Of a stretch of DNA of 64,000 nt, positions 7,429 through 62,770 are shown piece after piece. The DNA lies in NCBI GenBank assembly GCA_018902385.1, contig JABSSW010000002.1:1426001-1490000 (forward strand), written 5' to 3'. How positions within the stretch are numbered: the first letter of the stretch is position 1; every line of letters begins with the position of its first letter. Source of the stretch: Physcia stellaris. Its lineage: Eukaryota; Ascomycota; Lecanoromycetes; Caliciales; Physciaceae. The notes below the pieces were generated by a model, which made no database searches, was not told the DNA's origin, and saw only the letters and a list, made by a program, of their open reading frames with translations. The position numbers and the translations under genes are program-made.

Positions 7429-8823
<1,395 letters not shown>

Positions 8824-23411: not shown

Positions 23412-24190
23412 ATTGAGTGAGAGGACGGCCATGATGGGAGCAGAGGTGATATGGGAGGGAATTTACAGTTCGAGATTGCCAAGGTCTTGAGATATCTAAT
23501 TCTTCCTTTCTTTGTTGTTTGGGGTCACTGCGCAAGTACGTGACAGGAAACTGTCTTACTAAGTTCACCCAGTGGGTCGGCGTCGCTTAGATAGATTTTG
23601 GACAAAACGCGAGTAAAATAATGACTTTTATCCAGATGGGATCTGTATGAACGTCCCGCCCTATGTGAATGTTTGACCATGATAAACGCCACCAATGAAA
23701 GAAGATTACATCGTCCTCGTCGTGCTCTGCTGGACGGCGATTTTCGCGTCTTGGAAGATCAATGCCTCGCTCTTGAAGGAATATAAGAGTAATATATAGA
23801 GACAAGTTGGTGATTAACCCGTTTCTCCGACATGAGATCAAGGATCTTGGAACCATGACATTGCGTTCTAGCGCGCCTATTGAGACTAACGTTGTGTGGA
23901 TGGACAACATGCTTGATCATACTATCTAAAACTTTGCCAGCACATATGGGAGCTCTGATGCGAGCGCTAGTCCCACACAAAATCCAGGACAAATACTCAC
24001 GAAAAGCGAACAAGACTGCATCGGCGCTGTCATATCACTGCAGAAGATACAGAATTCATCGCTGAAAAACTCTGCTAGTAATACAGCAGAAGATTTAAGA
24101 AAACAAGTCTGTTAATTCGTAATCTGATAAAATAACTCTGAAGAGTGCGTCCGACACGAAAAATACTATCTAGATCTTTTTGTCGAACTG
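23412..24190. other. Gene-free border region before the AT-rich block
   Basis: Normal base composition to about 24060, then AT-rich but still containing AG, CT and GG/CC dinucleotides to about 24190, where the altered spectrum of the block begins. No gene recognised. Confidence 0.5.
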
Positions 24191-25394
24191 ATTCAAACGT
24201 TGATCAGAACGCATTCGTTCGATAAAACGACGACGACGTAAATTTCAAATGAATACATCGCAAACGTTCATCAAAATCATCATTTAAATTAAAAATTTTA
24301 AAATAACGAAAACATTCGTAACGAATGATGAAAATTTTCGAAATTTGATTATCAATATATTGTTTAACAAATGTAAATTTGATTTTTTAATCATGTATTA
24401 TGCATTTTTAATAAAATACGACTTTTGATAATCGATATATTAAAATATATCGATATTTTACATGCAACATTTGCGATTAAATTTGTGTTTATAATTTGAA
24501 AAAAATTAAACGTAAAAATTATATCATAAAATATATTTTTTAAAAAAATATTTATCGTTTTTTTTTTGAAAAATTTATTATTTTATTGAATTAAATTGAT
24601 TTTGACGAAAAATATTAAATTTTTTGTGCAATTTTTTCGTAATTTATTTACGAATCAACAATTATATATAATTTTTATTTATTTAATTTTAATTGTAAAA
24701 CAAAATAATCGTAATTTAACGTTGCAATAATAATAAAAATTTATTTATTATTATAATAATTTTAAAATTTTCAAAATTTCGTTGTTGTCAAATATTTGTT
24801 GACGAAAAAAATTTTCGACAAATTTTTTTTTAAAAAATTTTCGAACACATTTGTTTAAAATAAAAAATATTCAATATTATAAAATCGTTAATATTTTTTA
24901 ACAAAATTTGATAAAAAAATTTGTACGTATATTTTTACAAACATAAAATGATAAAATTTTTTAAATTTGAAATTATCGAATTTCGATTAATCGATTTGTG
25001 TAAATTTATTACAAATTTACAATAAAACGAAATTTTAATTTAATAAAAAATTGTAAAATTTGTATTAAAAATAATATAAAACACAATTTATAAAAAAATA
25101 TTTAATATATTTATTTAACGCGAATAATCGATTAATGAAAATTTTAAACAATTTTGTATTCGTATTTTTTAAAATCGATAATTTTTATTAATTGAAAATT
25201 TAAATTTTCAATTCAAATATACGTTAAAATTATTTCAAATCGTTTTAACAACGTGTAATTTTTTTATTTTATGTAAAATATTATAAATCGTATTTGTATA
25301 ATTGTATTGATTGATTAATTAAACGAAAACAATAAATTTGCAAAAACAAATTGATATAAAATATTAAAATTGCAAACAATGTATAACGTTAAAT

Positions 25395-25612
25395 TGTAAA
25401 TTGTTTTGCATTAATATAATATTAATACATAATTACACGAAAATTTTTAAATAAAAAACAAATACATGAAAATTTGCAAAAACATATATAAAAAATTTAA
25501 TTTTTCGAATGCGTCAAAACGAATTTCGATTTTAATATTCGAAATGACAAAATAACGATATTAACACGATATTAATTTTGTTAAATGTTGAATTCGATGC
25601 ACGTTCGTTATA
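25395..25612 (-). repeat. G1-family LTR copy (3' LTR of the truncated element)
   Basis: 218 bp matching, in reverse orientation, the 217-bp LTRs at 32129 and 39450. Its ends have decayed (TGTAAA at one end, GTTATA at the other instead of TGTGA..TCACA), consistent with further G-to-A and C-to-T change. Confidence 0.8.
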
Positions 25613-27099
25613 TTATTTTTCGTTTTTTTTCGATTTCGTTTTGAAACGATTAACAAATTTTTTTTTTCGTAACAATGAACGTTTAACGCGTTTCAAATGT
25701 TTTGTTGAATAATATTCAAAAAAATATTCGTTAAAATAACGAAACAAATACGAAATTTTGCGAAATGAATTTCGTTCGCGAAATAAATTCGTTAAAAATT
25801 TTCAAAATATCAAATCGATCATATTATGAAACAAACAATTTAATAATATTGATAAAATCAATGTAATAACGATTAACGCATCAATATTTAATTTCGTGCG
25901 TTTTTTAATGCGTACATTTCATTTTGTAAAATGAATATGCGAATTTTTTTTTGAAAAATATTTAATTTTGAACAAATTGTACAAATAATTTCGTCGATTA
26001 TTAATAAATATTTGAAAATTTTGTTAAAAATTTTGTTAACAAATTCGTATATTTGTCAATTTTAAACAATATATTTGTTTACATGCATTTATTTTTTATC
26101 GTTCAATAAAATTAAACAACAATTTTTGAAAATGTTTTTGACACGATTCAACTTTTCAAACGTCGTAAATTCTGATGATAAACAATAAAAAATTGATAAA
26201 ATTGTGAATTAACGAAATCAATTTCAAAATAAATATTTAACAAATTTGACGTCGATGTTATGTTTTTTAATCGATAATAATATTTTTGAAAATCATTATT
26301 TAATTATTTCGTAAAACAAAATTTGTTGTTTCGAAATTGATTTCGTGAAAAACGTTCACAATATTTTGAATATTTTGAAATTTATTATCGTCGACATAAT
26401 ATCAAATGCGATCGTGAAAATTTCAATTCGATTATTTATAACGATATTGTAAACGATGATAATAATATCGAAATTGCAATATATCGTTCAATTTTTACTC
26501 GAATATTTCATTTGCAATAACGAATTCAAAAAAATCGTTTTGTTGTTTTTTCAATGAATTTTTTGAAATTTTCTCTTAACAATTACGAATGAAAAATTGA
26601 ATGAATGTGTATATCGTTAAACAATTTCAATTCGTAAACAAAATTTCGTTTTTTAATGATTTTATATGAATTCAATTTTTTGTTATCGAATTTGTCGAAC
26701 GAACGAATTATTTTTATGTAACGACGATTCAATTATACATAATTTTTTATTTCAAAATTGATTGAAAAACGAATTTTGTTGATTCGAACAATCATTTTTT
26801 GTTTAACATTCGTAACATTAATTTTGACATATTCGATAATACGATTCATTTTTTTTGTTATGAATTCGTTTTTTTTCATCAATAATCATTTTTTAATCGT
26901 TTCGTAATTATTTAAATTTGAATCAAAAATTATTCGAAAATGATAATTTTTGTTGATAAAAAACGAAATGAATTCTGTAATCGTCGATACATCATTGTTG
27001 TCAAAAAATTTCATGATATCGATTCAATCAATTCAATTATTTTGTCGATAATTACAATACAAACGTAATCGCGTTTCGATATTTTGATTCGTTTGTTCG

Positions 27100-29000
27100 A
27101 TTTGATCATCAATTTCGAATTGAAACGTTATGAACAATTTACATTTGATTTTTAAACGTTTACAAAAATTTTTTCAAACGCGATTTACGAATTGATCGTT
27201 TCGATTCGAAATGATAAAAAACAAATCATGAATTCGAAATACGTAATGCAATAATATTTTAACGCAAATTTTGATTGTCAAATCGTCGTCATCGATCACG
27301 CAAAAAATATAATAACGTTTTTTGATCAAACGATCGATAATAATACAAATAACGTTATTATTTTTGAAATCAAATAATTCAATTATGAAATTCATTGAAA
27401 TGTCGATTCATCGTTGATTGAAAATTAATAACGATATTAATAATTCATGACGATTGTCGTGTAAAATTTTCGATCGTTGACATTTATAACAATTGCGAAT
27501 ATAACGTTTAACAAATAATTTCATATTAAATTAATAATAATAACGTTTAATGAATTTTTCAATTCGATTTATGTTTGAATGAACACAAAAAAATTGATCG
27601 TAAATATCGCGAATTATTTCAATCATGAAATTTAATCGATTTGATATTCATAAATTTTCGTTTTTGAAAAAAATTTCGTTTCGATCGAAACAATTTTGTA
27701 AATTTATTTTATCGTTAATGATTTGTTTATCGATCAAAATTTAACGATAATTAATGCAATTTTCGTTTTTTCGATTAATTTGCATAATTCGTTCGTATAA
27801 ATTATTTTGTGCGTCGATCGAACATAATTGTAATCGTGAAAATGATAACAAAATTTGTTTTTTATAAAGTTTTCGTTCGTCGTTTTCGACAAAACGAAAA
27901 TTAAACATACGAATTAAAACGTTTATTTTAACGTTTTTGATTTCGAATTGATATTGAATTTTGATATTGTAATCGATCAAAATTTTTGTTTAACGTATTT
28001 GACGAAAAATAAATTTTTTGTTTGTTATAAAAATTTTTAAATTTTTGTAATCGATATAAATTTCGACGAATTCGTCGATGTTTTCGAATTCGAATTTTCA
28101 ATATTTCAAACATCGAATAATGATTAAAAATTTTTTGTTGTATATTTCGTAATTGCATTCGACAAAAATCATTTTTTTGTTGAAAAAAATTATCGAATAA
28201 AAATTTTTTTTCTCGTCGTATTGCGACAAAATCTCATTTAAATATTAATTCGATAAATCAATTTTTAATATAATTTTACGATTTCGATCGTAATATCGAA
28301 ATATGAAAATTTCGATGATTTGTTTTTTTTTTTTCGAACGTTTTATTGACGAAATCGATTTAATCGAAATCAATTTTTTTTTGATTATTCGAATCAAAAA
28401 TTTGACGAATTTGAAAAATTTTGATAAAACGACGATAAAAATTGCAAAAATTCACAAACGTTTTTATTTTTTAATGCAAATTGAACGAATTCAATTGACA
28501 ATATTTTGAATTTTTTTGAAATTTATACGTAAATTTTCTGTTGATAATATGACGTTCAAAAATAAAATTTTCGTTTGAAAAAATTCGCATTTTTTGATAT
28601 CAATTTAAAATTCAATTTTTTTTAATCTTTGAAACATTTGTGTGAAATGTCGTTCATGTTTTTTTCGAATTTTGTTGTAAATAAAAATATCGTTCAAATA
28701 TATTTGACAAAAATAATTAATGTATTCGAATAACAAATCGTTTATATAATGTAATCAATTCGTCGAATCATTGATTAATTCGAAAAATAATACATAATAT
28801 TTGTAAATATTTAACGAACATATAAAAATAATCAATTTTTCGTTTTGTGAATTTATTCGAAATTTATTGAAAATCGATATAATGTTCAATTTGAACAGAA
28901 ATTTGCAATTTATAATTCAAACAAAATTTTTTTAATCAATGATATAAAATAATCATTGCGTTTGATTATAACGTTCAATTTTCGATAATTTATACATAAA
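27100..29000 (-). pseudogene. Mutated pol fragment (integrase, RNase H, reverse transcriptase) of the truncated G1 element
   Basis: Several in-frame stops, mostly TGA. The integrase core is the clearest part: FNNNVICIIIDRLIKKR-like residues, then RIHDLFFIISNRNDQFV, where the second catalytic Asp of the D,D(35)E triad has become Asn in the SNRNDQF position. RNase H connection residues and the reverse transcriptase palm follow on the same strand. Not functional. Confidence 0.75.
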
Positions 29001-29330: not shown

Positions 29331-32123
29331 ACGATTATCATTTTTTGATTTTTTCAATATGTTGTATCAATTCACAATTCAATAAAATCGAACAACAATT
29401 TCTGAAAATGTTTTTGACACGATTCAGTTTTCTATACGAAATAAATTCTGATTGTAAACAACGTCGAAACGATAATAATGAAATTTGAAATTGAAAAAAC
29501 AAATTTTGAAACGAACGAATAAAATCAAAATAAATTCAAATTTAATTGCGATTTTCAAATTTTAATCGAACGTAATTTCGATGAATGTCAAAACGACAAT
29601 TTTTTTTCGAAAACGACGACGATTCGCGAATGAATTTTGATCATCGATCGAAAAAATGATTTTAAATGATTTCGAATTTGCGACGATAAAATAAATTCGA
29701 TAATAATTATTTATCACGTTACGAATATTATCGAATTCATTGTTATCGACGTAATATCAAATTCGATTATACGATCAATTTGATCAATTGACGCGATATT
29801 GAAAACGATCGTAATAATATCGAAATTTTAAAATATTGTTCATTTTTTATTCGAAATTTTCGTTAATTACAACGAAATCGAATGATTCGTTAATTTGATT
29901 TTCGAAAAAATTACAAAAATTTTTACGCAAAAATCAACAATAAAACACATCATAAATTCGTATTGTTTTAAATAATTCAAATTGATAAAAATTGTTCATA
30001 CGTTTTAATATTTTGTATTAATCAATTTTTTTGTCATCAAATTTGTCGAATGATTTAACGATTTTGATATTTCGTCGATTCAAAAAACGTAATTTTTTCG
30101 ACGTATTCGACGATTTTGCGATATTTGTTGATTTGTGTCGTCATGCGTTTTTGAATTATTTCGACGTGAATTCGTATATAATCGAAAATGTTTTGCATTG
30201 TGTTCGTGATGTTTTTCGTTTTAACGATCAGAAATTGTTTTTTTGTAATGACATACGAAATAAAATTCAATAAAAATTTATACATAAATGAAAATTTTTG
30301 TTGACAAAAAACGATAACAATTCAATAAATACAAAAATCGCGTTATTGTTTGTAAATTCGATTATAAATAATTAAACATTATAATCGTTTTGCATGTAAT
30401 TGCAATATTGTCGCAATTGTTTTTCGATGTTTTAATTGATTTTTTCGATTTAATCATCAATTTTTAAATGAAAAATCGTGAAAAATTTACATTTGATGTC
30501 GAAAATTTTGCAAAAAACTTGTCATACGAAAAACACGAATTGAAAATTTCGATCAAATATTATAAAATAAAACAAATCATAAATACGAAACACGTATTAA
30601 ATGAATATTTTTGTTGTGATTTTAACATTCGTGTTTTCGTTTTTCGTTGTACAAAATGCATAATGACGTTTTTTATTAAATTTGTCGATTATTGTGCAAA
30701 TAACATTATGATCGTGAACGTCAAATAATTTCGTGATGAAATCAATAAATATATTCGTTCAACGTTGCAAAAATATAATAAAAAAAATGAATAATTCGTT
30801 TTTACGATTTTTGAAAATTTTAATTCGTTGATATTCGTGACAATTACGTACGTATCGACGAATGATTTTGCGCATGTTGAATCAATAATAATCACGACGT
30901 AAAAAATTTTTTATACGATTAAATTCAAAATAATTCGATACGAAAAATTCATGAATTTTTTTGAAAAAATCAACGAACAAAAAAACATCGACGAGCATTT
31001 ATAATCGATTTTTGTAATATAAAATATCGTTTTTTTTTGACAATCGCGTAAATTGATTTTATTCACGAAAATGAAATTTTGATTAAATATTTCACGATAT
31101 GTTCGACAATTGTCGTTTGTTTTGTTTGCGACGAAAATTCGTTCGTAAATTGATTCGTCAAATTCGACGACATGAATTTCGAATCGTTTTAAAATGAATA
31201 ACATTTGTTTTTTATATTGATGTCGTTCGTCGTTATCGTTTTTGAATCGTAAATTCGACATACGAATCAAAACGTTTGTTTTAATTTTTTGAATTTTTGA
31301 TTGAAATTGAATGACGATATTGAATTTCGATAAAATTTCTGTTCAACGAACTTGACGAGAAATTGATTTTTTCGAAATTATGAAAATTTTCAAATTTTTG
31401 TAATCGATGAAAATTTTGATCGATTCGTTAATGTTTTCGAATTTTAAACGTCAATATTTTAAACAACGAATAATGATCAATAATTTTTTGTTATAAATTT
31501 CGTAATTACATTCGATTGAAATCATGTTTCGATTGTAAAAAACAACGAAATGCAAAATTTTCTCGTTATCGTATTGCGATAACATTTTCGCATTGACGTA
31601 ATTTGAAAAATCGATTTCTAAAATGATTTGTTTGATTTTATCGTAATGACGAAATATAAAAATTTCGATCACGATTTTTTTGAATAAATTGAAAATTTTT
31701 TCGATTTTCGTAATTCATTCGAAATTTACGAATTTCTTGATTATACGAATGAAAATTTTGATTTTTTTCGAAAAATCGCGAATAAAACGTCAATAGAAAT
31801 TGACGAAATTCACGAAAATTTGAATTTTTTTGAAATTGATAAAACGTGTTCAATCAATTATAATTTGCATTTTTTTAAATTCATGCGAAAATCATTTATC
31901 GAGAATATAACGTTCAGAAAAATCATTTTTTTCTTGAAAAATTCGCATTTTTCAATATTCATTTGTAAATCGATTTTTTTGAGTTTTTTCAACATTGTTC
32001 GAACGTGCACGATATATTTTTTCTTGAATTTGTTGTAAATGAATATGTCATTCAAATAGATTTAACAAAATTCGTTCAGAAAATTGAACAAAAAATCATT
32101 TATATAATGTTATCAATTTGCAA

Positions 32124-32128
32124 AATCG
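32124..32128. other. 5-bp target-site duplication, left copy (AATCG)
   Basis: AATCG immediately precedes the TGTGACG start of the left LTR and is repeated exactly after the right LTR at 39667-39671. Five base pairs is the normal duplication length for Ty3/Gypsy insertion. Confidence 0.9.
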
Positions 32129-32345
32129 TGTGACGAACGTACATCGAATTCAACATTTGACAAAATTAACATCGAATTAACATCGTTATTTTATCACATC
32201 GAATGTTAAAATCGAAATTCGACTTGACGCAATCAAAAAATCAAATTTTTTACATATGTTTTTGCAAATTTCATGTATTTGTTTTTCATTTCGATATTTT
32301 CGTGTAATTATGTAATAGTATTATATTTTTGCATAACATTTCACA
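32129..32345 (+). repeat. 5' LTR of nested G1 element
   Basis: 217 bp, TGTGACGAACG..ACATTTCACA, with 5-bp terminal inverted repeats TGTGA/TCACA. About 97% identical to 39450-39666. Related copies in reverse orientation are at 25395, 47075 and 54369, with a decayed one near 46032. Confidence 0.93.
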
Positions 32346-32848
32346 TTATATCGAAGTTTTTTTCTTTCATGTTCGTTTATGATACGCGAACATTCAAATA
32401 AACAAAGTTTTTTACAATTAAATTCAATGAACGAATAGAAACATAATAGATTCAATTTGATTTTGATCATTCAACGAAAACAACGAAACATAATAAATTC
32501 GTTGTGAATTGAAAAAAACGAAACATAATAAATTCGTTTGTTTTGTTTTAAAAACATTCAAAACAAACGAATTTTCGCGATAGTTTCGATTCACAATACA
32601 ACAAATTTCTTTTTTTTTTATCATTTTTAACGAAACATTCGTGTTTGAAAATCAAAAAATCATCAAATCAAATTATCAAAAAAAACATCAACAAACACGA
32701 TTATTTAACATTCAATAATTTCATCAAAAAACAAATATTTAGAAATTTTATTTAATATCACACATAATTTATCATTTTGAATGAAATTCAATCATTGAAA
32801 TTTATTTAAGTTTTCGATTTTTTTTTTTTTTTTTATTTTATCAATTAT

Positions 32849-34200
32849 TTGAATTTGATTTATTATCATGATTTTTTCAAGTTTTTTTTCGAAATCAATT
32901 TGAAAAAACGATTGTTGTTTAACGAAATCAAACAATTGAACGTGTATGTTTCGAACGTAAAAATCAAAAATTTCGAACAACATATCATCGATATTTTTTT
33001 AATTATAAATTTCAATCAAAATGACGATGAATTTGATGAAAATAATTCGTTCAAAATTGTTAATTCAATAAACATTTTTTCGAAACAACAATTTCAAATC
33101 ATGATCGTTAAACATTTTGACGAATTATAAATTATTTTCGAAATTTTTCGACGAAATCGAAATCGAAAAATGATCGCAATTCGAATTTGAAATTTTCAAA
33201 TAAAAAACATGAAAATCAAAATTTCGAATCATAATAAAAAAAAATATGAAATCAATAAAATTTTACGCATCGTCAAAATCGAAACATTTATCGTTCAAAT
33301 TCGATACAACGAATTTTTTAAAATTCAACGAATACGTGAAAATAAAAAAACACAACGAAAAAAAAAAAAATCGTTACATTATCAAAATTTGAAAAAATTT
33401 TTTCAATATTGACGAGAAATTTCGTTTTGCATTTAAACGACATTCGTTCAAACATTTTTATTTTTTTATTTTTTTTGAACATAAAAATTTCAATACATTC
33501 GAATACATTCGTTATAACATTTGAAAAAATAAATGCATCGATAAATTGAAAATCAATTTCGATTGATACGCAAACGATTTCAAAGAAATTTTCGCAATCA
33601 TTGATTGAACGAAAAATAAATCAGCAAAGCACATTGATATTCGACGTGAATTTTAACGTCATTTTTTCGTTTTCGTTGAACAAATTTTCAAATTGTTGAA
33701 CGATATTTATATCGATGTCGATCATTTTCGAAACGTTCGTCGTCAATACGATGATTTAAAAATGAAATTTATCGAATTTTTCAGCGAATTCTATTTCGAA
33801 TTTCTTTTATTAACAAATCAATTATCTAAGAAAAATGAAACGAACAAGATTCACGATTTTGAAAAAAAAAATTACAATCAAATTTCAACACGTCGACGTT
33901 GAATTGAACGATTTTGAAATTTTTGAAAATTATTCACGCAAATTTCAAATCATGAATAACAAACATCATCGTATCAAAAACAACGATGTTAAAATCAACG
34001 TTTTTTTTATGAAATTCAAATCGTCGATCAACAAATTAAATTTTCGAATTCGTCGCAATGAACAATACATTAAAAATTTGAAAATTAAATACACAATTTT
34101 TTTCGAAAAAAAAAACGTACAAAATTGTCATCGTTCGTTTAATTTGAAAAAAATTTGTCGCAAATGTGATGAAAAAAATCATTGATAAAAAAAATGTTCG
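32849..34200 (+). pseudogene. Mutated gag remnant with CCHC zinc knuckle (nested G1 element)
   Basis: Gag-like frames with many stops. Near 34158-34197 the frame reads CRKCDEKNH, two stop codons, then KKC, which keeps the C-x2-C-x4-H-x4-C spacing of a retroviral-type nucleocapsid zinc knuckle. One or both stops are TGA/TAA in place of ancestral residues. The upstream part is too altered to assign sub-domains. Confidence 0.7.
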
Positions 34201-34462
34201 TTTGACAAATTTTTTGATAATTGAATTCGATAATTTGATCAAACAAAAAATGTTCAATTTACAAATCATTTTTGATCAACGATAATTTTTCGAACATCGA
34301 CGACGACAATATCAATTTCGATATTTTTATCATTTTCGATTGAATCGAAAAATTAATTGTTTTTTTCGAAAACGCGAAAAAAATTATCAAAATTTGTTCA
34401 CGAAATTTTCAACATAACATTTTTAACGAATTTCATTGTAAATTTTTAATTAAAAAATAAAT

Positions 34463-37400
34463 TTGTTTTCGAACGATCGAAAAATCATGATTCGTGATTT
34501 AATTGATATCGATGTTTCTGAATACGTTTTCATTAATGAAGAAATTGCGCAAAAAATATGTCATAAATTAAAATTGATTTCAGTATTTTTATTTCGATTC
34601 AAAAAATTTTTAATTTCGAAAAAATTGAAATCAAATCTATCATTCATCAAATATTATTCAAAATGACGTTACAAAATCATTCAAAATTTTTCGTTTCATT
34701 GTTATTATCAAATAAAACAACATTCGTTGATTTTAAATAAATTTTGAATGAACAAACACGAAATGATTTTCAATATGATCAATGACGAATGTTATTTCAT
34801 TTCAAATCATTGTGATCACGTGAAAACATTTTTTTTGTTATCGCGTTCATTCATATTTCAAAAATTGTTTAATTCGAACAAACAATCGAATAAAACGTTT
34901 TATTTGTTATCGTCGAAACGATTTTTGACGTCGTTGTCATCGATAAATGTTCAAAAATATCAAATATTTCAAAAACGATCAGTTTCGACATTTTTCGAGT
35001 AATTTTTTTTCGTTTTATCGTAAAAAACTCGAAAAAAACGAACAATCAATAAAAAAATTTTTGAATTCAAATTTCAAATATGTCATTGAAAAAATAAACA
35101 AAAATTATTTTTCGAATAAATTTTTCAAAAAAAAACGAAAAACGAAAATTATACGCGAAATTCAAAAATCGAATTTAATCAACGTTTCAATAAAAAAATT
35201 TGACATTATCAAAAAATTTACGCGTCGATTTAATCGACGATTCAAAATTACAACGATTTTCGAAATGAAAAATGACGAACAAAATTTCGATTTTGATATA
35301 TCGTTGAATGTCGCATTTATTGACGCGACGATTTTTCAATCGTTGATCAAAATTAAAAAAAAAAAAAAAATCAAAATTTTTCGTTGATATGAAAAAATTA
35401 AACGAAATTATTGACAACGTCAAAAAAAATTAATCAAAATAAACGTTGATTCTGATTTGAATTTCAAAAAAATTTTCAAAATCATGAAAACAATCGTCGA
35501 AAAATTAAAACGTAAAATTTTGAATTTTTTAAACGTTTCGAAAATGTATTCAATTCAAAAAAACAAATAAATTATTTTTTCATAAATTTTACGATCACAA
35601 AATCGAATTGACGAAAAATTTCGAACAATTATTTCGAAGTCGAGTTTATTTTTTATCGTCAAAAAATTCGAAATTTTTCAAAAATATTTTCATGACAATT
35701 TTCAAAAAAAATTTATCAATTCAAACAAAACGTTTTATGTTTTATTTATTTTATTCGTCGTCAAATCGAACGAACAATTTCGTTTGTGCGTGAATTATCG
35801 AAAATTGAACGTCATAATCAAACGAAATAATTATTTTATTTCGTTGATCGAAAAAATTTTTGTTAAAATTATCGATTGTAAATTTTTGTTCAAATTGAAT
35901 ATTATATCGATTTTCAATAAATTTCGAATGAATTCACAAAACGAAAATTTTATTATTTTCATATGTTCGTTAAACATTTACAAATATCATGTATTGTTTT
36001 TTGATTTTATCAATGATTCGATCAATTGACAACATTACATGAATAATTTGTTGTTTGAATATATTAATCATTTTTGTCAAATGTATTTAAATGATATTTT
36101 CATTTACAACAAAATTCGAAAACAACATGAACGACATTTCATTCAAATCTTTCAAAAATTGAAAAAAATTGATTTTCAAATCGATATCAAAAAGTGCGAA
36201 TTTGTTCAAACAAAAATTTCGTTTTTAAAAATCATATTATCGACAGAAAATTTACGCATGAATTTCAAAAAAATGCAAAACATCGTCAATTGAATTCGTT
36301 CAATATGCATCAAAAAAATGCAAACGTTTGTGAATTTTTGCAATTTTTATCGACGTTTCATTAAAGCGTTTTCGAAATTCGTCAAATTTTTAATTCGAAT
36401 GATCAAAAAAAAAATTGATTTCGAATGAATCGATTTCGTTAACGAAACATTCGAAATTTTGAAAAAACAAATAATCGAAATTTCAATTTTTCGACATTAC
36501 GATCGCAATCGTAAAATTATTTTGAAAATCGATTTTTCAAATTGATGTTTAAATGAAATTTTATTTCAATACGACGACGACGAAATTTTTTATTCGATGA
36601 TTTTTTTCAACAAAAAATGATTTTTGTCGAATGCAATTATGAAATATATGACAAAAAAATTTTGATCATTATTCGATGTTTGAAATATTGAAAATTCGAA
36701 TTCGAAAATATCGACGAATCAGTCGAAATTTATATCGATCACAAAAATTTGAAAATTTTTATGACAAACAAAAAATTCATTTCTCGTCAAATACGTTGAG
36801 TCGAGATTTTGACGAATTACAATATCAAAATTCAATATCAGTTCGAAATCAAGAACGTCAAAACAAATGTTCTGATTAGAATGTTTGAATTTCGTTTCGT
36901 CGAAAACGACGAACGTGAATTCTATAAAAAACAAATTTTGTTGTCATTTTTTCGATTGCAATTATGTTCGATTGACGTTCAAAACGATTTATACGAACGC
37001 GTTATGCAAATCAATCGAAAAAACGAAAATTGTATTAATTATCGTCAAATTTTGATCGATGAACAAATCATTAACGAAAAAATAAATTTGCAAAATTGTT
37101 TCGATCGAAACGAAATTTTTTTAAAAACGAAAATTTATGAATATCAAATAAATTAAATTTCATGATTGAAAATAATTCGAATTGTGACGTTCACGATCAA
37201 TTTTTTGTGCACATTCGAACATGAATCGTATTGAAAAATTCATTAAACGCTATTATTATTGATTTAGTATGAAATTATTCATCAAACGTTATATTCGTAA
37301 TTGTCACAAATATCAACGATCGAAATTTTTTCACGATAATCGTCACGAATTGTTAATTTCATTGTCGATTTCTAATCAACGATGAATTGATATATCGATG

Positions 37401-38062
37401 AATTTCATAATTGAATTGTTTGATTTCAAAAACAACAATGTTATTTGTATTATTATCGATCGTTTAATCAAAAAACGTCATTACGTTTTTTGTGTGATCG
37501 ATGACGATAATTTAACAATTCAAATTTGTGTCAAAATATTGTTACATTACGTATTTCGTATTCATGAATTATTTTTTTTCATCATTTCAAATCGAAATGA
37601 TCAATTCGTAAATCGCGTTTGAAAAATTTTTGTAAACGATTAAAAATTAAATGTAAATTGTTCATTGTTTTTCAATTTGAAATCGATAATCAAATCGAAC
37701 GTGCGAATCAAAATATCGAAATTCGATTGCGTTTGTATTGCAATTATCGTCAAAACGATTGAATTGATTGAATAAATATCATGAAATTCGTTGACAACAA
37801 CGATGTTTCAACAATCATCGAATTCATTTCATTTTTCATTAATAAAAATTATCATTTTCGAATGATTTTTGAATCAAATTTGAATGATTACGAAATCATT
37901 AAAAAACGTTTATTGATCAATCAAAACGAATTCATTGTCGAAAAAATGAATCGTATTATCGAATACGTCAAAATCAATGTTGTCGATACAAAACAGAAAA
38001 TGATTGTTCGAATCAACAAATTTCGTTTTTCAATAAATTTTGAAATAGAAAATTACGTTTGA
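34463..38062 (+). pseudogene. Mutated pol remnant: protease, reverse transcriptase, RNase H, integrase (nested G1 element)
   Basis: Protease (34463-34666): LIDIDVSEYVFINEE, where functional enzymes have an Asp-Thr-Gly active site; Thr and Gly read Ile and Asp (codons ATC GAT). Reverse transcriptase (about 35600-36300): VNYRKLN in finger/palm, then QMYLNDIFIYN with the first catalytic Asp changed to Asn, then KKCEF. RNase H at about 36470-36800. Integrase core at 37398-37622 (IIDRLIKKRHY; SNRNDQFVNRV) and C-terminal region 37781-38062. Stops in frame are nearly all TGA, at places where the family has Trp. No chromodomain seen. Confidence 0.88.
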
Positions 38063-47074: not shown

Positions 47075-47292
47075 TGTGAAATGTTATGCAAAAATATGAT
47101 ATTATTACATAATTACACGAAAATATCGAAATGAAAAACAAATACATGAAAATTTGCAAAAACATATGTAAAAAATTTGATTTTTTTGAATGCGTCAAAA
47201 CGAATTTCGATTTTAACATTCGATGTGATAAAATAACGATGTTAATTCGATTTAATTTTGTCAAATGTTGAATTCGATGTACGTTCGTCACA
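47075..47292 (-). repeat. 3' LTR of the second full-length G1 element
   Basis: 218 bp, reverse orientation, begins TGTGAAATGTTATGC and ends GTTCGTCACA. Confidence 0.9.
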
Positions 47293-48670
47293 TTATTTTT
47301 CGTTTTTTTTCAATTTCGTTTCGAAACGATCAATTGATTTTTTTTTTTAACGAAACGTTTTGCGCGATTAAATGCGTTTAAATGACGTTGAATTGAATGA
47401 TTCGATAAAATGAAAAAATAAATTCGAAATGTGAAATCGATTTCGTTCGCGAAATCGATTCGTCAAAAATTTTGAAAACATTCAAATCGATTTACGATGA
47501 AATGAACAATTTTGATCATGTTAATAAAATTATCGTAACAATGTTTAACGTTTTGATATTTTCGCGTATGCGAAAAATTTAACATTGCATGCGACAAAAA
47601 AAATGTAAAATTTTTGAAAAATAATCATTTTAATCAATTTATACGTTTCGTCAAAAATAATTTCGACGAACATTAATAAACAAACAATTTTGAATTTTTG
47701 ATTTAACGCGTTAACTAAATTTTGAAAATTTTTGCAACATCAAATTGATATCACGAAACGAACAATTTGAACAAATCGATAAAATTTTTATCATCACGAT
47801 TAACGCGTTGAAATTATCGCATATAAACGTTTGATTTTTAATTGCATTTCAACGAAATATGCATGTATTAAATTTTTTGAAAAAAAATATTTTGAACGAA
47901 TTTTACAAATAATTTCGATCGTGTCATTAATAAACAATTGAAAATTTTGTTGACGAAATTATGTAAATGTTCGAATTTTTTTGACAATTTGTTGTTTATT
48001 ATTTCATTGCATGACACGTTTTTTACATTATTTATTGTTCAATAAAATTTGACGACAATTTTGAAAATGTTTTTGACACGATTCAATTTTTCATGCGACG
48101 TAAATTTTGATTGTAAATAACGCGAAATAACATAACGAAACGAAAAATCAAAAAAAAATTATTTGAATCAATTTGAAAATGAATTGTAACGAATTCATGT
48201 TGACAATTTTTGATCGATCATAAACGATAAAATTCACAATTTAATTATTTCGCAAAACAAATTTCGTTGTTTTTGAATTAATTTCGTGAAAAACATTCGA
48301 CGATTTTGAACATTTTGAAATTCGTCATCGTCGACATAATATCAAATTCGATTATAAAAATTTCAATTCGAATCATTTTGCAACGATATTGAAAACGATA
48401 ATAATGATATCGAAATTGTAATATATTATCGAATTTTCATTCAAACATTTCATTTGCAATAATTGATTTTGAAAAATCGTTATGTTGTTTTTTTAACGAA
48501 TTTTTAAATTTTTTTTTCAACAATCAAAAATGAAAAATTGAATGAATGTGCATGTCGTCGAACAATTTCAATTCATAAACGAAATTTTTTTTTGATTATT
48601 TTGTATGAATTCAATTTTTGTCGTTCAATTTGTTTGACGAACGAATTGTTTTTATATGACGACGATTTAA

Positions 48671-51600: not shown

Positions 51601-53843
51601 TTTGAAAAATTTATTCGAAAAATTTTTTTGTTTATTTTTTCGATGACATATTTGAAATTGAAATTCAAAATTTTTTAACGACGTTTTTTTTTCGATTTTT
51701 TCAACGATAAAACGAAAAAAAATCGATCGAAAAAATCGAAATTGATCGTTTTTGAAATATTTGATATTTTTAAACGTTCGTAAAAAAAAAAAACGACGTT
51801 AAAAATCGTTCAAAAACGACAAACAAAAAATGTTTTATTCGATTATTTGTTTGAATTAAATAATTTTGAAATATCGACGATCGAAACGATAAAAAAAATT
51901 TTCGTCATGATTACAATGATTCGAAATGTGAAATAACATTCGTTATTAATTCATGTTGAAAAATATTTCATGTTTGTTTATTCATGATTTATTTAAAATC
52001 AACGAATGTTGTTTTATTTTGATAATAAATTTTGTTTAAAAAAAAAAAAAAAATTTTGAATGATTTTGTATCGTTATCTTGAACAATATTTGATGAATAA
52101 TAAATTTGATTTTTGTTTTTTCGAAATTAAAATTTTTTTTGAATTTCGATAAAAATATTGAAATTAATTTTAATTTATGACAAACTTTTTGCGCAATTTT
52201 TTTATTAATGAAAACATATTCAAAAATATCGATATCAATTAAATTATAAATTATGATTTTTCGATTGTCAAAAAACAAATTTATTTTTTAATTAAAAATT
52301 TACAAAGAAATTCGTTAAAAATGTTATGTTGAAAATTTCGTGAACAAATTTGATAATTTTTTCGCGTTTTCGAAAAAATAATTAATTTTTCGATTTATCG
52401 AAAAATAAAAAAAAAAATCGAAATTTATATTTCGTTAATCGATAATCGAAAATCGTTGCAAAAAATATTTTGAAAATTAAAAATTTTTTTTTAATCAAAT
52501 CGTCGATTCAATTCGAATAACGATTTGTTTGATTTTGCATTTTTTTCATTCAATGTTTTAAATTATCACAACGACGATTTTTTTTTTTTTTCAAAACAAA
52601 AAAACGAAATTATGACAATTTTATAAATTTTTTTTTTTGAATTGATGTAATGATGATTAATTTCGCAAAATATTTTTCGTTTCGACGAATTCGAAATGTT
52701 TAATTTATGATTCAAAAAAAAAATTTGAAAAAATTATCGTTGTCATTTTGAATACGTCGATGACGATTATCGATTGTTTGAATTTTTCGATGAAAAAAAT
52801 AAACGAAATCAAAAATTATTCAAATTATTAAAATAATCAATTTGAATTTAACGATAAATTTTTTTTCAAATCATGAATTTTGTCGTTATCAAATTTTTGT
52901 TGAATAATTGATTAATCAATAAAAAAATTTTGAATAAAATTCGTTGTATAAATTCGAAAATTTCATTTTGAAATCGTCGTATTGACGTCGAATATTTCGA
53001 TTATGATTTGCATCGAACGTAAATGATATCGAACAATTTGAAAATTTTTTCAATTATTCGAAAAAATTGACGTTTAATTTTACGTCGAATATAAACGTGT
53101 TCGACGATTTTTTTTTTTTAATTATTGAACGATTGCAAAAATTTTTGAATTTAATAAAATATCAATTCGAAATTGATTTTCAATTTATTTACGTATTTAT
53201 TTTTTCAAATATCATATCGAATGTATTCGAAAACGTTTGAATTTTTGTGTTTAATAAAAGAAAAAAATCGAAATTTAAAAATCAACTTTTTGTTTTTGAA
53301 CGAATTTTGAAAAAATCAAATTTTTTTTCGTCATAATTGATTTTTGAAAAATATCGACATTTTGATCATTCGAAAATTTTTTTTTTTTTTTTTTTTTTTA
53401 ATTTACGATTAACGATCGAATCGTTTGTTGATTTTAATACGATATTTATAAATTTCAATTCGATTTGTTTCGAATAAAACGTTAATTTCATCGAATTTTA
53501 AAAAATGTTTTAAATTTTTCGTTTTTATGTATTTTTCGCGATTGTTTCAAACACGAATGATATTGATGTTTTTGTTTTTATTTTTTCGAAAAAATTTCAA
53601 AATTTTTTAAAATCGTGCAAATTGTTCAAAAGTCGCTTTTTTTAATTTCGAAAAATTAAATATGTCAATTGACGTCAAAATTATAATGAAATTCGATTTT
53701 GTAAAATCGAACATTGTTGTGATCATATAAATATCGAAAAAACGTTCAGAATTATCGATTTTCTGATTAAAATCGAAAATATTCAGTTTTTTTATTTCGT
53801 TGAATCGTTGACGTTTTTTCAGACGAATTGAAAAAAATTGCAA
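48671..53843 (-). pseudogene. Mutated gag-pol of the second full-length G1 element
   Basis: Same domain order as the nested copy, on the opposite strand. The longest surviving frame (50859-51347, 162 codons) spans the linker and the start of the reverse transcriptase, including LCVDYRKLNVIIKRNNYF. The palm has LNDIF rather than a double-Asp motif. Multiple TGA stops. Non-functional. Confidence 0.85.
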
Positions 53844-54368
53844 AAAATAATAAAAATTGAAATCGAAAAAAAAAAAAAAAAAATTCGAAATATAAAAAGT
53901 TTAAATAATCGATTGAATATAATGTCGTTTAAAATAAAAAATTGAATATTATTGAAAATGAAATTTTGATTAATTTTTGATGTTTTTTTGTAAAAACAAA
54001 TGAATTTTTTCGAAATGATTTGATAAATGTTTGATGATGTAATCGAATCATTTTTGAAACAAAAAAATTTTGTCAATTAATAATGAAACGAACTTGAATC
54101 GACGTTCGAAAAATTATTTTGTATTGTGACATCGATTATCGTTGAAATTCGTTTGTCAAAATATTCAATTGAATCGACAAACGAATTTATTATGTTTCGT
54201 TTTTTCAATTTACAATCAATTTGTTACTTTTGTTGTTTTTTTGAATGATCAAACGATACGAATCTATTATGTTTTTTTATCAATTTTTGAGTTTTGAAAC
54301 AAAAAGTTTTGTTTATTTGAATGTTCGCGTATCATAAACGAACATGAAAAAAAATAATTTCGATATAA

Positions 54369-54584
54369 TGTGAAATGTTATGCAAAAAATATAATATTAT
54401 TTATATAATTACACGAAAATATCGAAATGAAAAGCAAATACATGAAATTTGCAAAAACATATGTAAAAATTTGATTTTTGAATGCGTCAAGACGAATTTC
54501 GATTTTAACATTCGATATGATAAAATAACGATATTAAATCGATATCAAATTTTTAAATGTTAAATTCGATGCACGTTCGTCACA
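54369..54584 (-). repeat. 5' LTR of the second full-length G1 element
   Basis: 216 bp, reverse orientation, begins TGTGAAATGTTATGC and ends GTTCGTCACA. Small length differences from the other copies come from homopolymer runs. Confidence 0.88.
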
Positions 54585-56399
54585 TATTATTCATTTCGTC
54601 GTGTTGAAAAAAAAAAATTTCAAAAATCGTGACGAAAAATTTTGATTACTTTTCGACGTATATGAAATTTACGACGTAATGAAAATTTCAAAAACGCGTT
54701 GAATCGTGTCAAAAACATTTTTTGAAATTCAGAATTTCGTATTACAATTCATCGTCGTGATGATGAAAAGACATCGATGTAAAAAAAAAAAATAAAAATG
54801 ATGAAAAAAAAAAAAAAAAAACGAAAATTTTTGAACGACGATGCGAAATTAAATTTAAATATTTTCAATTTTCAACATCACGATTTCACGATCGTGAAAC
54901 ATTTTTTTCTAGATGAAAACATTTGTTTGAATCATTAAAATTTAAATCATTTGTTTAAAAAATTATTTGAATGAAATTTGCAAATAAAATTTGCGATATT
55001 CGTACGAATAAAAATCGTGAATGATCGATCAATTCGACAATGTTATATACGAAATTTTATATTCAACAACAATGAAACAACGATCGAAATGTTTTTTTGT
55101 TATATCATTCAAAATTTAATATGATTGCGAAAAAAATCGTTTTGATTTTATATATCATATTACGATTAACGAAATCAACAAAAAATGATTTAAAATTTAA
55201 TGAACATGATTGTCATGTTTTCGATTAAATCGTTTCATATTTAAACAATGAAATTGTTTGTATTTTTTTTAATTTTTCGAATTTCTGATATTTTGACGTA
55301 TAATTCAAAAAACAATTTTTTTACAATTTCGTGTATAACGAAATATGCAAAAATCGTTTTTCATAACAAAATTTTTTATACATGATTTTGAAAAATCGTT
55401 TAAACGTCGAATTTCATTTTTATGCGTTTCGTTTATTTAATTTTCAAATGAATTTGTTTTTTCGTTTCATACGTATTCAAAATTTTTTTTTTCGAAAATA
55501 ATATCAAAAAAACGATAAAATTTTTTACGACACGAGATTGATTTGAAATTCGATCTTTATCATTTTTCGAAAATTGATTTTTGAAATTTTGTTTTTTTGA
55601 AATAATTGATAAAAACAACATTCGAAAATTCGAAATTAATCGTTCGATTTCGATATCAGAATCGAAATCGTAATTAATTGTTATGTTGTTCAAATTAAAA
55701 TGATTTTTCGTTTTAAAACAAAAATAATAAAAAAAACGATTCGATTTTAACACGATTATTGATTGTTTCGTCGATTTCGTCGAAATTTAAAAAATTTTTT
55801 TTTTTCGTTTACGATTTCAAAAAACGTCAATCGATTTTTTGTTGAATAATCGTTGCGAAAAATTTTTTAAAATTAAAAACGTTTTCACGTTTTTTGTAAA
55901 TTTTCGTTTTTTTGATACAAAAAAAAACGATGATGTTGACGAAAATCGAAAATATCATTTTTGCGATCGCGAATTTTATTCGTATCGAATTTACATCATA
56001 AATGTCATGTTATGTCAAGATCGTCAATCACGTTAATTTGATCGAATTTAACGTTTTGATCGATAAAATATAACATTTCGAAAATTTTCACTTTTTTTCG
56101 TTTTCACGATTTAATTTTATCATTATTCACAATGTTATCACGATGATTTATCATCGTCTCGTAAACATTGCGTTTGTTTGTAATCATTTGATCATTCAAT
56201 CGTTTATTTTTTTACAATTTTGAATCGTTTAAATTTTCGTGAACGATTGTTCGATCAAATGACATCATTTAAAATTTTGAAAACATTTGTTGTCATTGCG
56301 TTCGTGATTCGAAACAATATCGTTATTTCGTTTCAACAATTATCATTCGACAACACGATCGTAAAATCGTTTTAATTTGAAATCGATCAACGAAACGAA
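54585..56399. other. AT-rich interval without a recognised element
   Basis: Same depleted dinucleotide pattern. It contains a segment near 54690-54720 resembling the GTGTCAAAAACATTTT string of the G1 3' untranslated part. It may hold the 5' LTR and leader of the chromodomain element that follows, but I could not find its mate. Confidence 0.4.
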
Positions 56400-58051: not shown

Positions 58052-61000
58052 TTGAAATTAAACATTTTCGAAAATTTTACGACAATGTTGAACGATGACA
58101 TTATTTCAATGTACGCGTTGATATGTATTATACGAAAAAACGACAAAACGTCGATCGAAATTTCGAACGAATTGCAAATATTCGAAAATGTGTTTTTTTT
58201 CAAATCGACAATCACGTTTTTTTCGTACGACGAACACGATCATGTCATTGATTTAATGTCGAACAAATTTTCGTTTTTCGAATTTTTGTACAATATGTTT
58301 CAAAAAAAATTAAAAATTTTTCAAAAATACATTCGCGAAAATTTTGCGTTGAATCGTATTAAACATTTGATTGTCGATGTTGATGCGTCGATATTATTCA
58401 TTTTCAAAAAAAATGAAAATTTAAAATTTTGCGTGAATTACAAAAATTTGAATGCGATCACGATCAAAAACAAAATTTCATTATCGTTGATTGATAAAAC
58501 ATTGAATCGTTTGATAAACGTCGCGTATTTTATCAAATTAAATTTGAAAAACGCGTATTATCGTATAAAAATCAAAACGAATAACGAATGAAAAATCGCA
58601 TTTCGAATACGATACGATTTTTTCGAATACGTCGTGATATTTTTCGATTTTGTTAACGCGTCGACGATTTTTCAATCGTTCATGAACAAAATGTTCGTAA
58701 AATTGATAAACAAATTGTGTGTGTTGTTTTTAAACGACATTTTGATTTATTTTCGAACGAAAAAAAAATATTGACGTTACGTAAAGACGATGTTTAAACG
58801 TTTTCGAAAATTTAATTTTTTCGTCAATTTGATCAAATGTCGATTTATGCAAAAATTTATCGAATTTTTAAAATATATCATCAATAATAAAAAAATATTC
58901 ATGAATATGAAAAAAATAAATTCGATCAAATCATGATCGATTTATGATAATTTCAAAAAATTGCAAATTTTTCTGAAATTCGCAAATTTTTATCGAAAAT
59001 TCATCGTAAAATATACGAAAATGTCGCGTTCATTTTTCGAATTATTGAAAAATAACAAAAACGAAAAACAAATCGACGAATTCATTTGAAACGACGAAAC
59101 AATGAAAATTTTCAAAAAATTTATTCGCATGTTTATCGAAACGTTCATGTTGATACATTTCGATTTCAATAATCGAACAATGATTGAAATCGATATTTCA
59201 AAATTCGTTATCGCAAAAATGATTTCGTAATTGATGAAAAATCTCGATATCGAAAATCAAACGCAATGACATTTCGTCGTTTTTTATTCAAAAAAAATGA
59301 TATTTATCGAAATCAAATATTCAACGCACAATCAAAAATTGTTTGTTATCGTAAAAAATTTCAAACAATGACGTCATTATTTAAAAAGTAATCAATTCAC
59401 GATTATCGTAATGTCGAATCATAACAATTTGAAATATTTTATGTTTATTACGTTTTTGAACAAACGACAAATCAAATAAATTTTATTGTTAAATGAATAT
59501 GATTTCGAAATCAAATACAAAAATGAAAATTTTAATTCGACAAACGAATCATTTCGATGTTCAAATTACGAAAACGAAAACGAAAACGATAATATTTGTT
59601 TGTTCACATTGCAAAACAAATTTCGAAATATCGCAATTGCAAACATTGCGTTTTCAACGAAATCAAAACAATGTCAAAAAATTTTTGACGAGAAATTTTC
59701 AAAAAAAAATTTTCAAAACGAAATTGTCGCGATATCGTAAACAATGCGTCGAAAAAAAATTGTTGAAACGTGTGACAAAAAAAATTCGTACGAAAATTCA
59801 TTTCAGAAATTTTTCAACAAAATTGAAAAATTGCAAATATTCGACAATGAATGCGTAAAACGTCGCGCGTTCATACGAAACGATAAAAAATTTAAAAATT
59901 GAACATTAAATTCGAACAATATTTTACGATATTGACATGTTGTATATGTATCAAATGAAACAAATTTAAAAATCAAAATTTTGCGACGTTGTCACGACGA
60001 TTTTTTTGCAAAACATTTCGAAATTGAAAAAATCGTTAATTTTATTCAACGAAAATTTTATTGAATGTACATGCGAAAAAACATCGAAAAATATATCAAA
60101 AAATGTGCGATATATCAAAAAACAAAAATTCATTATTATCGTTTTTACGAAAAATTGTCGAAATTGTCGATATCGACAAAATCATGAAAAAAAATTATCA
60201 TTGATATGATTACAAAATTTTCATTCAATAAATGACGCAAAAAAGTTTACGATTCGATCATAATAATAATAAATCGATATATCAAAATAACGATTGACGT
60301 TTCGATAAAATTCATCATGAAAACAAACGAAATGTGTGATTTGTTTTTCGACGACGTTTTTTTGAAATATGATTTATCGAAAAACATAATTTCAAATCGT
60401 GAATTTTTGTTTACAAGCAATTTTTGATCAACATTGTGTTATTACGCGAAAATTAAACGCAAATTTAATATCGTTTTTCATTCACAAACAAATAATCAAA
60501 CAAAAAAACAAAATCAGATTTTTAAATATTATTTGCGATATTTTTGCAATTACAAACAGAACAATTGAATTTCGTTATTGTTAATGATCGTTTTCGTATA
60601 CAATTGCGCGAAACACGCGTTTATTAAAATAATTTCGTTTAAAATTTTGTTCGAATATATTTCAAATTTCAATTTCAAATTCGATTTTGTTTAACAAAAC
60701 ATTTCGACGACGAAACAAAAATTTCAAAATTTGTTCGATAAACGAAAAAAATTACAAAAAAATTTGAAACACAATAATGAAACGCAAACAAAATGAATTA
60801 ACAAAAAAACATTCGCGAAAACATACAATGTAAAAAACAAAATTATGTTGTCGATTAAAAATTTAAAACAAATACGATCGAAAAAAAAAAAAAAATTGTT
60901 CGACAAATACATCGAAATTTTTGAAATTGAAAACGTTGTCGACACGCAAATTTATCGTTTAAAATTGTCATTCAAATGACGCATTCATTCAAAATTTTAC

Positions 61001-61250
61001 GTGTTTTTATTCGAAAAATATTATATCAACGAATTCACAAAATCGTTTGCGAAAATAATCTTGATAAACGATCACGAAAAATGAAAAATAGAAAAAATTC
61101 TCGACGTGAAAAAAAAAATGTCTCGATATTTGATTCGATGAAAAAAATATTTATCATATGATAATAAATGAATTAAAAAAAAAATTTGAATAACGTCGAC
61201 GAAACGTTGACGACGTTCAAACGAAAACGTATCGAAATTCAATTGTCATT
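58052..61250 (+). pseudogene. Mutated pol of the G3 element (reverse transcriptase to chromodomain)
   Basis: The reverse transcriptase frame of 179 codons (58052-58591) is the longest coding remnant in the AT-rich block; it includes ASILFIFKKNENLKFCVNY and KLNLKNAYYRIKIK. The catalytic region downstream (about 58730) reads LCVLFLNDILIYF, again Asn in place of the first Asp. RNase H and integrase fragments follow with TGA stops. The C-terminal part aligns with the chromodomain tail of chromoviruses (NNVDETLTTFKRKR). Confidence 0.8.
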
Positions 61251-61400
61251 TTTCGTCAAAAAAAAAAACGATCGTTCAAGCGAAATTTTGCGAAATCAAA
61301 TTTCAAATTCAGAAAAAAAAACGACGATTTGTAACAAGAAAAACGCAAAATGCGAATTTTTTTACAATAAATTGTTTCATATGTAATAAAATCAATAAAG

Positions 61401-62770
61401 TTCATTTTTTTAATAATTGTGTCGTTGCATTGAATATGTACAAATGATTAATAAACATATTAAAAATATCAATTAATTTTTTCATGCGATGTTTTTTCAA
61501 TTCGTCGTCGTTTTTGTGTTAAAAAAATCACAAATTAAAGTTTGTGAATTACAATGAACATCGTTTTGAATTTTATTTTCGTTTTTATCGTATCGATTTT
61601 TTCGATTGATTACGATTTGTTCGATTTTGATAAAAATAATGTTCAAAAACGATTATCACGTTTATTCGACGTCATTGTCGTCGAAATTCATGATTTCAAC
61701 ATCAATCGAAATTTGATTTTCATTTTTTTTTTCATTCGAGAAATTCGCGAAACGCATAATTGAGAAATTTTCATTGACGCGAAACGAATCGATCATAAAA
61801 CGTAAAATTTGATTGATGTCGACGAATCGAAATTTCAAACATAACAACAAATTTTCAATAAAACGATATTGATTTGATTTTTTTTGTTGTGTAAAATATT
61901 GTTGAATTTTCACAATCGTATTTTTCAAACGCAATTGCAAATTGAACATCAAATTGTCGCGTTTGTGTTTTATTGCAATTGTTAAAATCGTCAAATATTG
62001 TTGAATTCGACGAACATATTTAAAAAAAATTAACGTACAAAATTTGCGAATCGACACGCACGTAAAACATTTGTCGTCGTGAAACGATCGAAAACATTGC
62101 GCAAATCAACGCGATCAATTGAAAACGCAAAATACATATTTCATGTTCGACATCGTCAAGTTTGCGTTTGACGCATTTTATACAACATTTTACACGAAAC
62201 GTGTTCACATCACGTTTAGAAAATTACAAGAATTAACACACGAAATCACGAAGTCAAATCAAATTTACAATTTTGATTTTGACGTCACGCGAAATCATTA
62301 CGTGTTTCAGTAACAACAATCAAAAAAGAAACAATAAATTTATTGTTGACAATATTGATATTGTACAAATTGTCAACGTCAACAAAGCACAATCTAAACG
62401 CGAAAAGCATTTTTATTAAATTGTTTCAAAATAATATTGAAAAAAAAAATGAAAAAATGATCGCAATGAATTTTTGTGTACGCGTCAAAACGTTAATCAA
62501 ATGTTTAACACATTCATCAAAACAAACAACGAACGCGATGAATCGCAAATGAAACGAAAAAAATTATACAACGAACGCGACAAAACGTTTGTTCAACGAC
62601 GACAAATTAATGTCGATTCGAACAATTGAATATTAATTTTTTTCATTTTACATTGAAAGCATAACAATGAATGAAATCGTCGTCACGTCATCGATTCATG
62701 AATTACAATGAACATTTCATCATTTGAATTACAATAAACATTTGTCATTAATAATGAAAATAATCATGTA
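61401..62770. other. AT-rich interval between G3 coding remnants and the right border
   Basis: Contains a degenerate minus-strand open frame (listed separately) and repeated GAATTACAATGAACAT strings at about 61543 and 62698, with a variant at about 62723. These could be parts of an LTR or a short tandem repeat. Confidence 0.4.
61662..62208 (-). pseudogene. Degenerate open frame with a CxxC..KRKLDD motif, not Gypsy pol
   Basis: Two overlapping minus-strand frames (62020-62208 and 61662-62057) give CIKCVKRKLDDVEHEICILR, a His/Cys arrangement, then SRRQMFYVRVDSQILYV and a longer basic, helical part. It does not match gag or pol of the elements here. It may be a mutated duplicated host gene or an accessory gene of a transposon. 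One frame change is needed near 62040. Confidence 0.35.

Follow-up and report, generated by a model that had tools for sequence, protein, structure and literature searches.

A block at positions 24190-62770 of a 64,000-nucleotide stretch of genomic DNA from the lichen fungus Physcia stellaris (assembly GCA_018902385.1, contig JABSSW010000002.1, positions 1,426,001 to 1,490,000 of the forward strand; this whole stretch is referred to as the window) is very probably a nest of long terminal repeat (LTR) retrotransposons mutated by a process resembling repeat-induced point mutation (RIP), but with an almost inverted 3′-neighbour rule. The process converts C to T on both strands with the 3′-neighbour order CpC > CpT >> CpA > CpG, CpG being at about background, and we refer to its main targets as CpY (C followed by a pyrimidine).

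Dinucleotide signature and substitution spectrum

A first-pass annotation, made from the sequence alone, had described CC, CT, GG and AG as nearly absent across the block, and a count of all 16 dinucleotides confirms this. CC and GG do not occur at all, where 464 and 489 are expected from the block's own base composition, and CT and AG are reduced to 72 and 109 occurrences (0.04 and 0.06 times the 1626 and 1708 expected). CA (1919, 1.15 times expectation), TG (1994, 1.19 times) and CG (2239, 4.70 times) are retained, and CpA is therefore not depleted relative to expectation; in the flank at 1-24000 all sixteen dinucleotides lie at 0.70-1.23 of expectation. The edges are sharp, with the last CC and GG on the left at 24151 and 24023, the first on the right at 62826 and 62846, and none between 24152 and 62825. 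Surviving C is preceded by A, G or T, in keeping with the earlier observation that its 5′ neighbour is unrestricted, and C is missing from this position because CC itself is missing. The sparing of CpA needs some qualification in that its density is about 50 per kb in the block and 76 per kb in the flank, yet in aligned copies only 5-7% of CpA sites are altered. Within the block GC content is lowest at 42001-47000 (14-17%), where CpA and TpG are also scarcer than in most of the remainder; because TpA is not correspondingly raised there, additional loss of CpA and an ancestral sequence already rich in AT are equally likely.

The changes themselves can be read by aligning mutated with unmutated copies. 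L025, an unmutated element with a GC content of 0.51, is the reference for nine mutated relatives among the loci examined; 24 places genome-wide match the element, counting L025 itself. Gap-adjacent and poorly matching columns were removed from these alignments, and because C>T and G>A were scored as matches, columns were kept or dropped regardless of the 3′ neighbour. Across the nine copies C has become T at 3469 of 3554 CpC sites (97.6%) and 3188 of 3725 CpT sites (85.6%), but at only 258 of 3549 CpA sites (7.3%) and 111 of 3301 CpG sites (3.4%), while A-to-G and T-to-C changes amount to 1.4% and 1.8%. Broken down by the 5′ base, the altered fractions are 0.96-0.99 for CpC, 0.82-0.89 for CpT, 0.06-0.09 for CpA and 0.01-0.07 for CpG. 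A second family, represented by four copies aligned with the unmutated L026, behaves similarly, with changes at 1631/1860 CpC (87.7%), 1052/1724 CpT (61.0%), 85/1795 CpA (4.7%) and 54/1775 CpG (3.0%) sites; as the top-scoring mutated copies among 44 matches, these four are the least mutated of that family. The least altered copy, L045, stands at 77% for CpC, 44% for CpT, 3% for CpA and 2% for CpG, suggesting that CpC fills first.

The substitution tables have one hallmark of RIP, C-to-T transitions on both strands with other changes at background, and lack another, the preference for CpA. Most C-to-T changes lie at CpC and CpT, and the alignments in two retrotransposon families support the proposal of the first-pass annotation that a RIP-like C-to-T process follows a different 3′-neighbour rule, while refining that rule to CpC first, CpT second and CpA as a weak third target. 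Canonical RIP with its CpA decay masked by age was also considered, and is ruled out by the direct alignment of copies.

The coding consequences are equally distinctive. In the reverse transcriptase (RT) frame of L025 all 58 TGG codons are altered in the copies (55 to TGA and three to TAA), all 27 CAA codons are unaltered and 67 of 81 CAG codons have become CAA; 58 of the 61 new stops derive from TGG. CAA has become TAA at 13 of 254 positions in the other three open frames of L025, which are less well aligned and one of which is possibly non-coding. RT matches genome-wide, inspected by eye, contain mostly TGA stops.

Burst, strand patches and genomic setting

The closest mutated relative of L025 speaks to the tempo of mutation. 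In L042, 884 of 897 CpY sites (98.6%) are mutated whereas only 28 of 2538 other sites (1.1%) differ, with a transversion rate of 0.0004; CpY is thus near-saturated while other sites are almost unaltered, which argues for a burst and not for slow decay. The same copy has changes at 26 of 441 CpA sites and 0 of 408 CpG sites, and CpA therefore looks like a weak but true target, with CpG excluded. The remaining eight L025 relatives differ at 2.4-5.7% of other sites and have 86-97% of their CpY sites mutated.

Action on one strand at a time within a single event is a feature of RIP, and single-strand patches are clear in L045, where positions 1-590 have 4 of 68 sites mutated on the top strand and 68 of 89 on the bottom (Fisher p 2.6e-20; 0 of 1000 permutations). 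On the strand that was hit the changes fall at 53/59 CpC, 15/30 CpT, 4/48 CpA and 1/46 CpG sites, and positions 1901-2380 resemble 1-590.

Several observations weigh against this interpretation. Strand patches are significant in only one of four copies, L046, L047 and L048 being matched by 220, 682 and 284 of 1000 permutations, although their absence would be expected if later rounds overwrite them. L026 (C5:1165021-1168497) and L027 (C12:58812-62288), which are Ty3/gypsy-like and separated by ordinary substitutions, are unmutated yet 95% alike over 3.4 kb, and a fully efficient RIP should have attacked both. Similarly, the unmutated L025 has a mutated sibling in L042, the two being about 99% alike outside CpY sites; both partners of such a pair would be expected to be RIPped, unless L025 was spared or arrived later. 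The contrast between contexts is weaker in two distant pairs, L027 with L041 (CC 84/147, CT 83/187, CA 32/158, CG 29/145) and L026 with L044 (CC 21/39, CT 22/46, CA 7/54, CG 10/42), and the share of new stops derived from TGG falls to 78/89, 70/102 and 14/41 in the other three open frames of L025. The proportion of the genome affected, given below, is estimated from three contigs only.

With regard to a possible confinement to repeats, the affected elements are multi-copy, as checked for part of the affected stretches, and the flank in the window is untouched, but the L026/L027 pair consists of unmutated repeats. About 38 further places match the L026/L027 family at 69-81%, and the four examined are CpY-mutated. 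The block consists of nested LTR retrotransposons, in which a single 7.5 kb element is present twice at full length, alongside partial and related copies, and the principal features of the window are as follows, the coding strands of the 7.5 kb element copies being inferred from the strand of RT matches in sister copies.

24190-62770, no strand: AT-rich nest of mutated repeats, with zero CpC/GpG and CpT/ApG nearly lost
32122-39666, + (putative coding strand): LTR retrotransposon copy of 7.5 kb, full-length, with LTRs at 32122-32345 and 39443-39666 that are 96% alike
47071-54596, - (putative coding strand): the other full-length copy of the 7.5 kb element, with LTRs at about 47073-47305 and 54367-54596 that are 90% alike
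25391-29000, - (putative coding strand): third, partial copy of the 7.5 kb element, 83% to 47713-50943
29709-32118, - (from the L026 open frame): copy of a more distantly related element, 68% to the 7.5 kb element
58406-58876, +: RT stretch with two TGA stops, matching PF00078
1-24150, no strand: unaffected flank, GC about 50%, with normal CC and CT and eight open frames of 296-604 amino acids

The two full-length copies lie in inverse orientation (32122-39666 against 47075-54584, 84% over 7735 columns) and their LTRs are about 225 bases long; for the stretch at 47000-51500, scoring 32 of 882 candidates gave at least 31 long matches at other genomic positions, at 84-93%. Parts of the block can also be compared directly with unmutated elements, albeit against a more diverged background: 30661-32111 with L026 (C-to-T at CC 172/192, CT 165/190, CA 51/184, CG 32/190) and 40821-41171 with L027 (CC 35/42, CT 32/35, CA 11/47, CG 3/31). 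A second CpY-depleted block begins about 2 kb past the right end of the window (at about 2001-9000 of C2:1490001-1500000). One of the open frames in the flank, at 7697-8644, encodes a DAHP synthase.

The assembly analysed has 147 contigs and 43.97 Mb; the published genome, from an ascospore culture sequenced with Nanopore and Illumina reads, is described as 184 scaffolds and 46.57 Mb (PMC7513301). We sampled 15 segments of 10 kb, distributed over contigs C1, C4 and C7, and counted a 1-kb interval as affected if CC plus GG numbered 25 or fewer, by which 31 of 150 sampled intervals are affected, or 70 of 214 when the window itself is added. Not one of the 70 passes the usual RIP-index thresholds (product >1.1, substrate <0.9, composite >0), the pooled product and substrate values being 0.48 and 1.35, and neither does any of the 144 unaffected intervals. 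Because the P. stellaris process favours CpC and CpT, almost the opposite of the usual CpA rule, it is missed by the usual index tests. The interval richest in CC/GG among those sampled (209, GC 0.62) is at C1:704001-705000 (4001-5000 of L013). A scan of viral contigs for relatives of the L025 element yielded six stretches matching the patterns, none of them a relative.

Methyltransferase genes and alternative explanations

The genome contains three PF00145 genes, encoding a DIM-2-like protein (L006) and two RID-family proteins, RID-b (L007) and RID-a (L001, at C6:791557), with open catalytic frames in all three; the RID homologue associated with RIP is thus present in two forms. RID-b is 934 amino acids by gene model (932 in P0121), and the second RID-like protein is identical, over the part searched, to G7Y79_00005g016670 of P. 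stellaris. The loop and motif VI of RID-b (PPCQFFSDAHT and LEQT) are the same as in Teloschistales relatives, and a quick tree of 54 catalytic domains places RID-b among Lecanoromycete RIDs. RID-a (513 amino acids by gene model) has the features of RID, Masc1 and DmtA, namely PF00145 (the only match in a Pfam scan), a PPC loop, an E[QE]T motif VI, IGNAVPP and a short target-recognition region, with no BAH domain. In the same tree RID-a and its relatives, including one from Heterodermia, make up a clade of nine rows (SH-aLRT 100) that lies close to DmtA proteins of Eurotiomycetes (93, this branch being left open). The DIM-2-like protein has PF25423 and PF00145, the architecture of fungal DIM-2 relatives, the best of which are 92-61% alike; a Pfam scan gave no BAH match at E 0.001. 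A BAH match is likewise lacking in the Pfam calls of its closest relatives (P0239-P0241), and PF01426 is present in most of the more remote relatives listed. Three lichen proteins, P0047, P0063 and P0068 (Caloplaca-like, Teloschistes and Fulgogasparrea), make up another RID-like group, which is separate from RID-a and RID-b and lies near Sarea and Pleopsidium; two of the three have an altered motif IV (SPSC, SPCC).

RID-a is set apart by the residue seven positions after the catalytic Cys, which is Gln in all 32 members of its lineage (P0001-P0032, cut by rank). Among other fungal matches this residue is His in 43, Lys in 19, Asn in four, and Gln and Tyr in one each (68 readable of 69), and in the RID-b search it is His in 114 and Arg in one (115 readable of 118 new matches). 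RID-a of Physcia also has Tyr where eight readable members of the lineage have His, in the stretch before what we take to be motif IX. Both residues are candidate leads to specificity.

A mechanism consistent with these observations is that a RID-family, cytosine-5 methyltransferase-like enzyme, its target shifted from a 3′ A to a 3′ pyrimidine, would act as the mutator, and that mutation would occur during the sexual cycle in repeated rounds, with CpC filling first. The best single candidate would be RID-a with Gln in its catalytic loop, and the confidence expressed above applies to the CpY process, not to the role of RID-a. That Physciaceae carry an extra, altered RID which changed the target code of RIP from CpA to CpC/CpT, thereby disarming repeats with CpA hardly touched, CpG untouched, and CpA-based surveys blind to the outcome, is a tentative proposal, to which we give appreciably less than even weight; what connects RID-a with the process is a correlation within a single genome. 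The first-pass annotation had suggested a diverged RID/DIM-2-type enzyme, and while RID and DIM-2 homologues are indeed present, including an unusual second RID, a mutator role for them is still a lead.

It is nearly an even prospect that the same CpY process is performed by RID-b or DIM-2, perhaps mitotically like Dim2 at CpA in Zymoseptoria, a possibility that competes only with the assignment to RID-a. All three genes have open catalytic frames, RID-b lies within the Lecanoromycete RID clade, and no CpA-type index values are seen in the 70 affected intervals, this lack of a canonical signature implying that RID-b is inactive, outpaced or itself CpY-specific. In favour of this alternative, too, a mitotic mutator that depends on Dim2 and leaves CpG alone has been described (PMC8016269). 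Against it stands the likeness of the RID-b loop and motif VI to those of relatives in the Teloschistales, the order to which Gyalolechia flavorubescens belongs. RIP has been reported in that species with CpA indices (PMC7882544).

Explanations that dispense with a RIP-like CpY process fare considerably worse. Slow deamination of 5-methylcytosine at CpC and CpT of methylated repeats would likewise yield C-to-T changes, and a DIM-2-like gene is present, but the disparity between CpY and other sites in L042 (98.6% against 1.1%), the single-strand patches in L045 and the untouched CpG sites of L042 (0/408), CpG being the favoured methylation context in Zymoseptoria (PMC8016269), make it very unlikely. 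The strand patches would fit a single-strand cytidine deaminase of the AID/APOBEC type acting on repeats or on intermediates of reverse transcription. The known enzymes of this type respond to the 5′ neighbour, however, which has little effect here at CpC and CpT, and both strands of entire nested blocks are mutated, such that we regard this too as very unlikely. An APOBEC_N search of the genome gave no match, the control of that search being silent as well, and there are eight PF00383 deaminase matches, the best of which (C64:178666-179121) has four in-frame TGA codons that could reflect introns or a CpY-mutated copy. A sequencing or conversion artefact, such as bisulfite-treated reads in the assembly, deserves almost no credence: we found nothing in its favour, both strands are altered, flanks on the same contig are unaffected, CpA is spared along with CpG, and it was by Nanopore and Illumina sequencing of an ascospore culture that the published assembly was obtained (PMC7513301).

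Comparison with known systems

To our knowledge the determinant of RIP's choice of cytosine is not known, and a genome that combines a nearly inverted 3′-neighbour order with both a normal-looking RID and a candidate enzyme allows target choice to be mapped directly onto residues. Ascomycetes were reportedly surveyed by Clutterbuck in 2011. One paper notes that there are no enzyme activity data for either RID or Masc1 (PMC8016269). A survey of 1,239 fungi concludes that RIP-like defences share a CpA preference (PMC12543289); CpY-type systems call for context-free tests. We found no report of CpC-first, CpA-sparing RIP in the literature searched (open-licence papers), and the main text of the Physcia genome paper contains neither the whole word 'RIP' nor 'repeat-induced' (PMC7513301). 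Among lichen fungi, RIP has been reported with CpA-based indices in G. flavorubescens and Cladonia metacorallifera (PMC7882544), and in Cladonia rangiformis, judged largely by GC content (PMC12542154); these reports suggest that the Physcia rule may have changed within the Lecanoromycetes. The picture is not simple, as the dominant forms given for RIP-capable control fungi are CpT to TpT, which is hard to square with the CpA indices used (PMC7882544).

A CpT signature alongside CpA has been described in Magnaporthe, Botrytis and Sclerotinia (PMC4352252) and in Colletotrichum truncatum and Anisogramma anomala (PMC6180176, PMC10998396). These systems share mutation of CpT with Physcia but differ in that CpA is mutated too, in the same genome or in sister transposable element families, whereas in Physcia CpC is first and CpA nearly spared; the term CpC is absent from the main text of these three papers. 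The CpG-type mutation of basidiomycete repeats, in Microbotryum, Puccinia and Melampsora (PMC4352252) and in Rhizoctonia solani AG8 (PMC4014442), departs from CpA as the Physcia process does, but is described as CpG-biased where CpG is at background in Physcia. A table for R. solani AG8 has single nucleotide polymorphisms densest per base at CpC (every 214 bp, against 370 for CpG), values that cover genes and repeats alike, are not normalised and are not termed a CpC bias by the authors (PMC4014442). CpC is mentioned for Monilinia, as a CpC to TpT double mutation, but there the classical CpA to TpA change is the expected and reported main pattern (PMC8959702). The Dim2 mitotic mutator of Zymoseptoria tritici resembles the Physcia process in making C-to-T changes in repeats while sparing CpG, and differs in acting at CpA, which accounts for >98% of C-to-T changes in Zt10 (PMC8016269).

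The P. stellaris process resembles Neurospora-type RIP (RID/DIM-2) in making C-to-T changes on both strands of repeats, in following a 3′-neighbour rule and in its sharply bounded compartments, as also in the presence of homologues of RID and DIM-2 and in the single-strand patches of one early copy. It differs in that the main target in Neurospora is CpA whereas Physcia prefers a 3′ C, then T, with CpA nearly spared, and in that the stops in its RT frame arise from TGG rather than from CAA or CAG.

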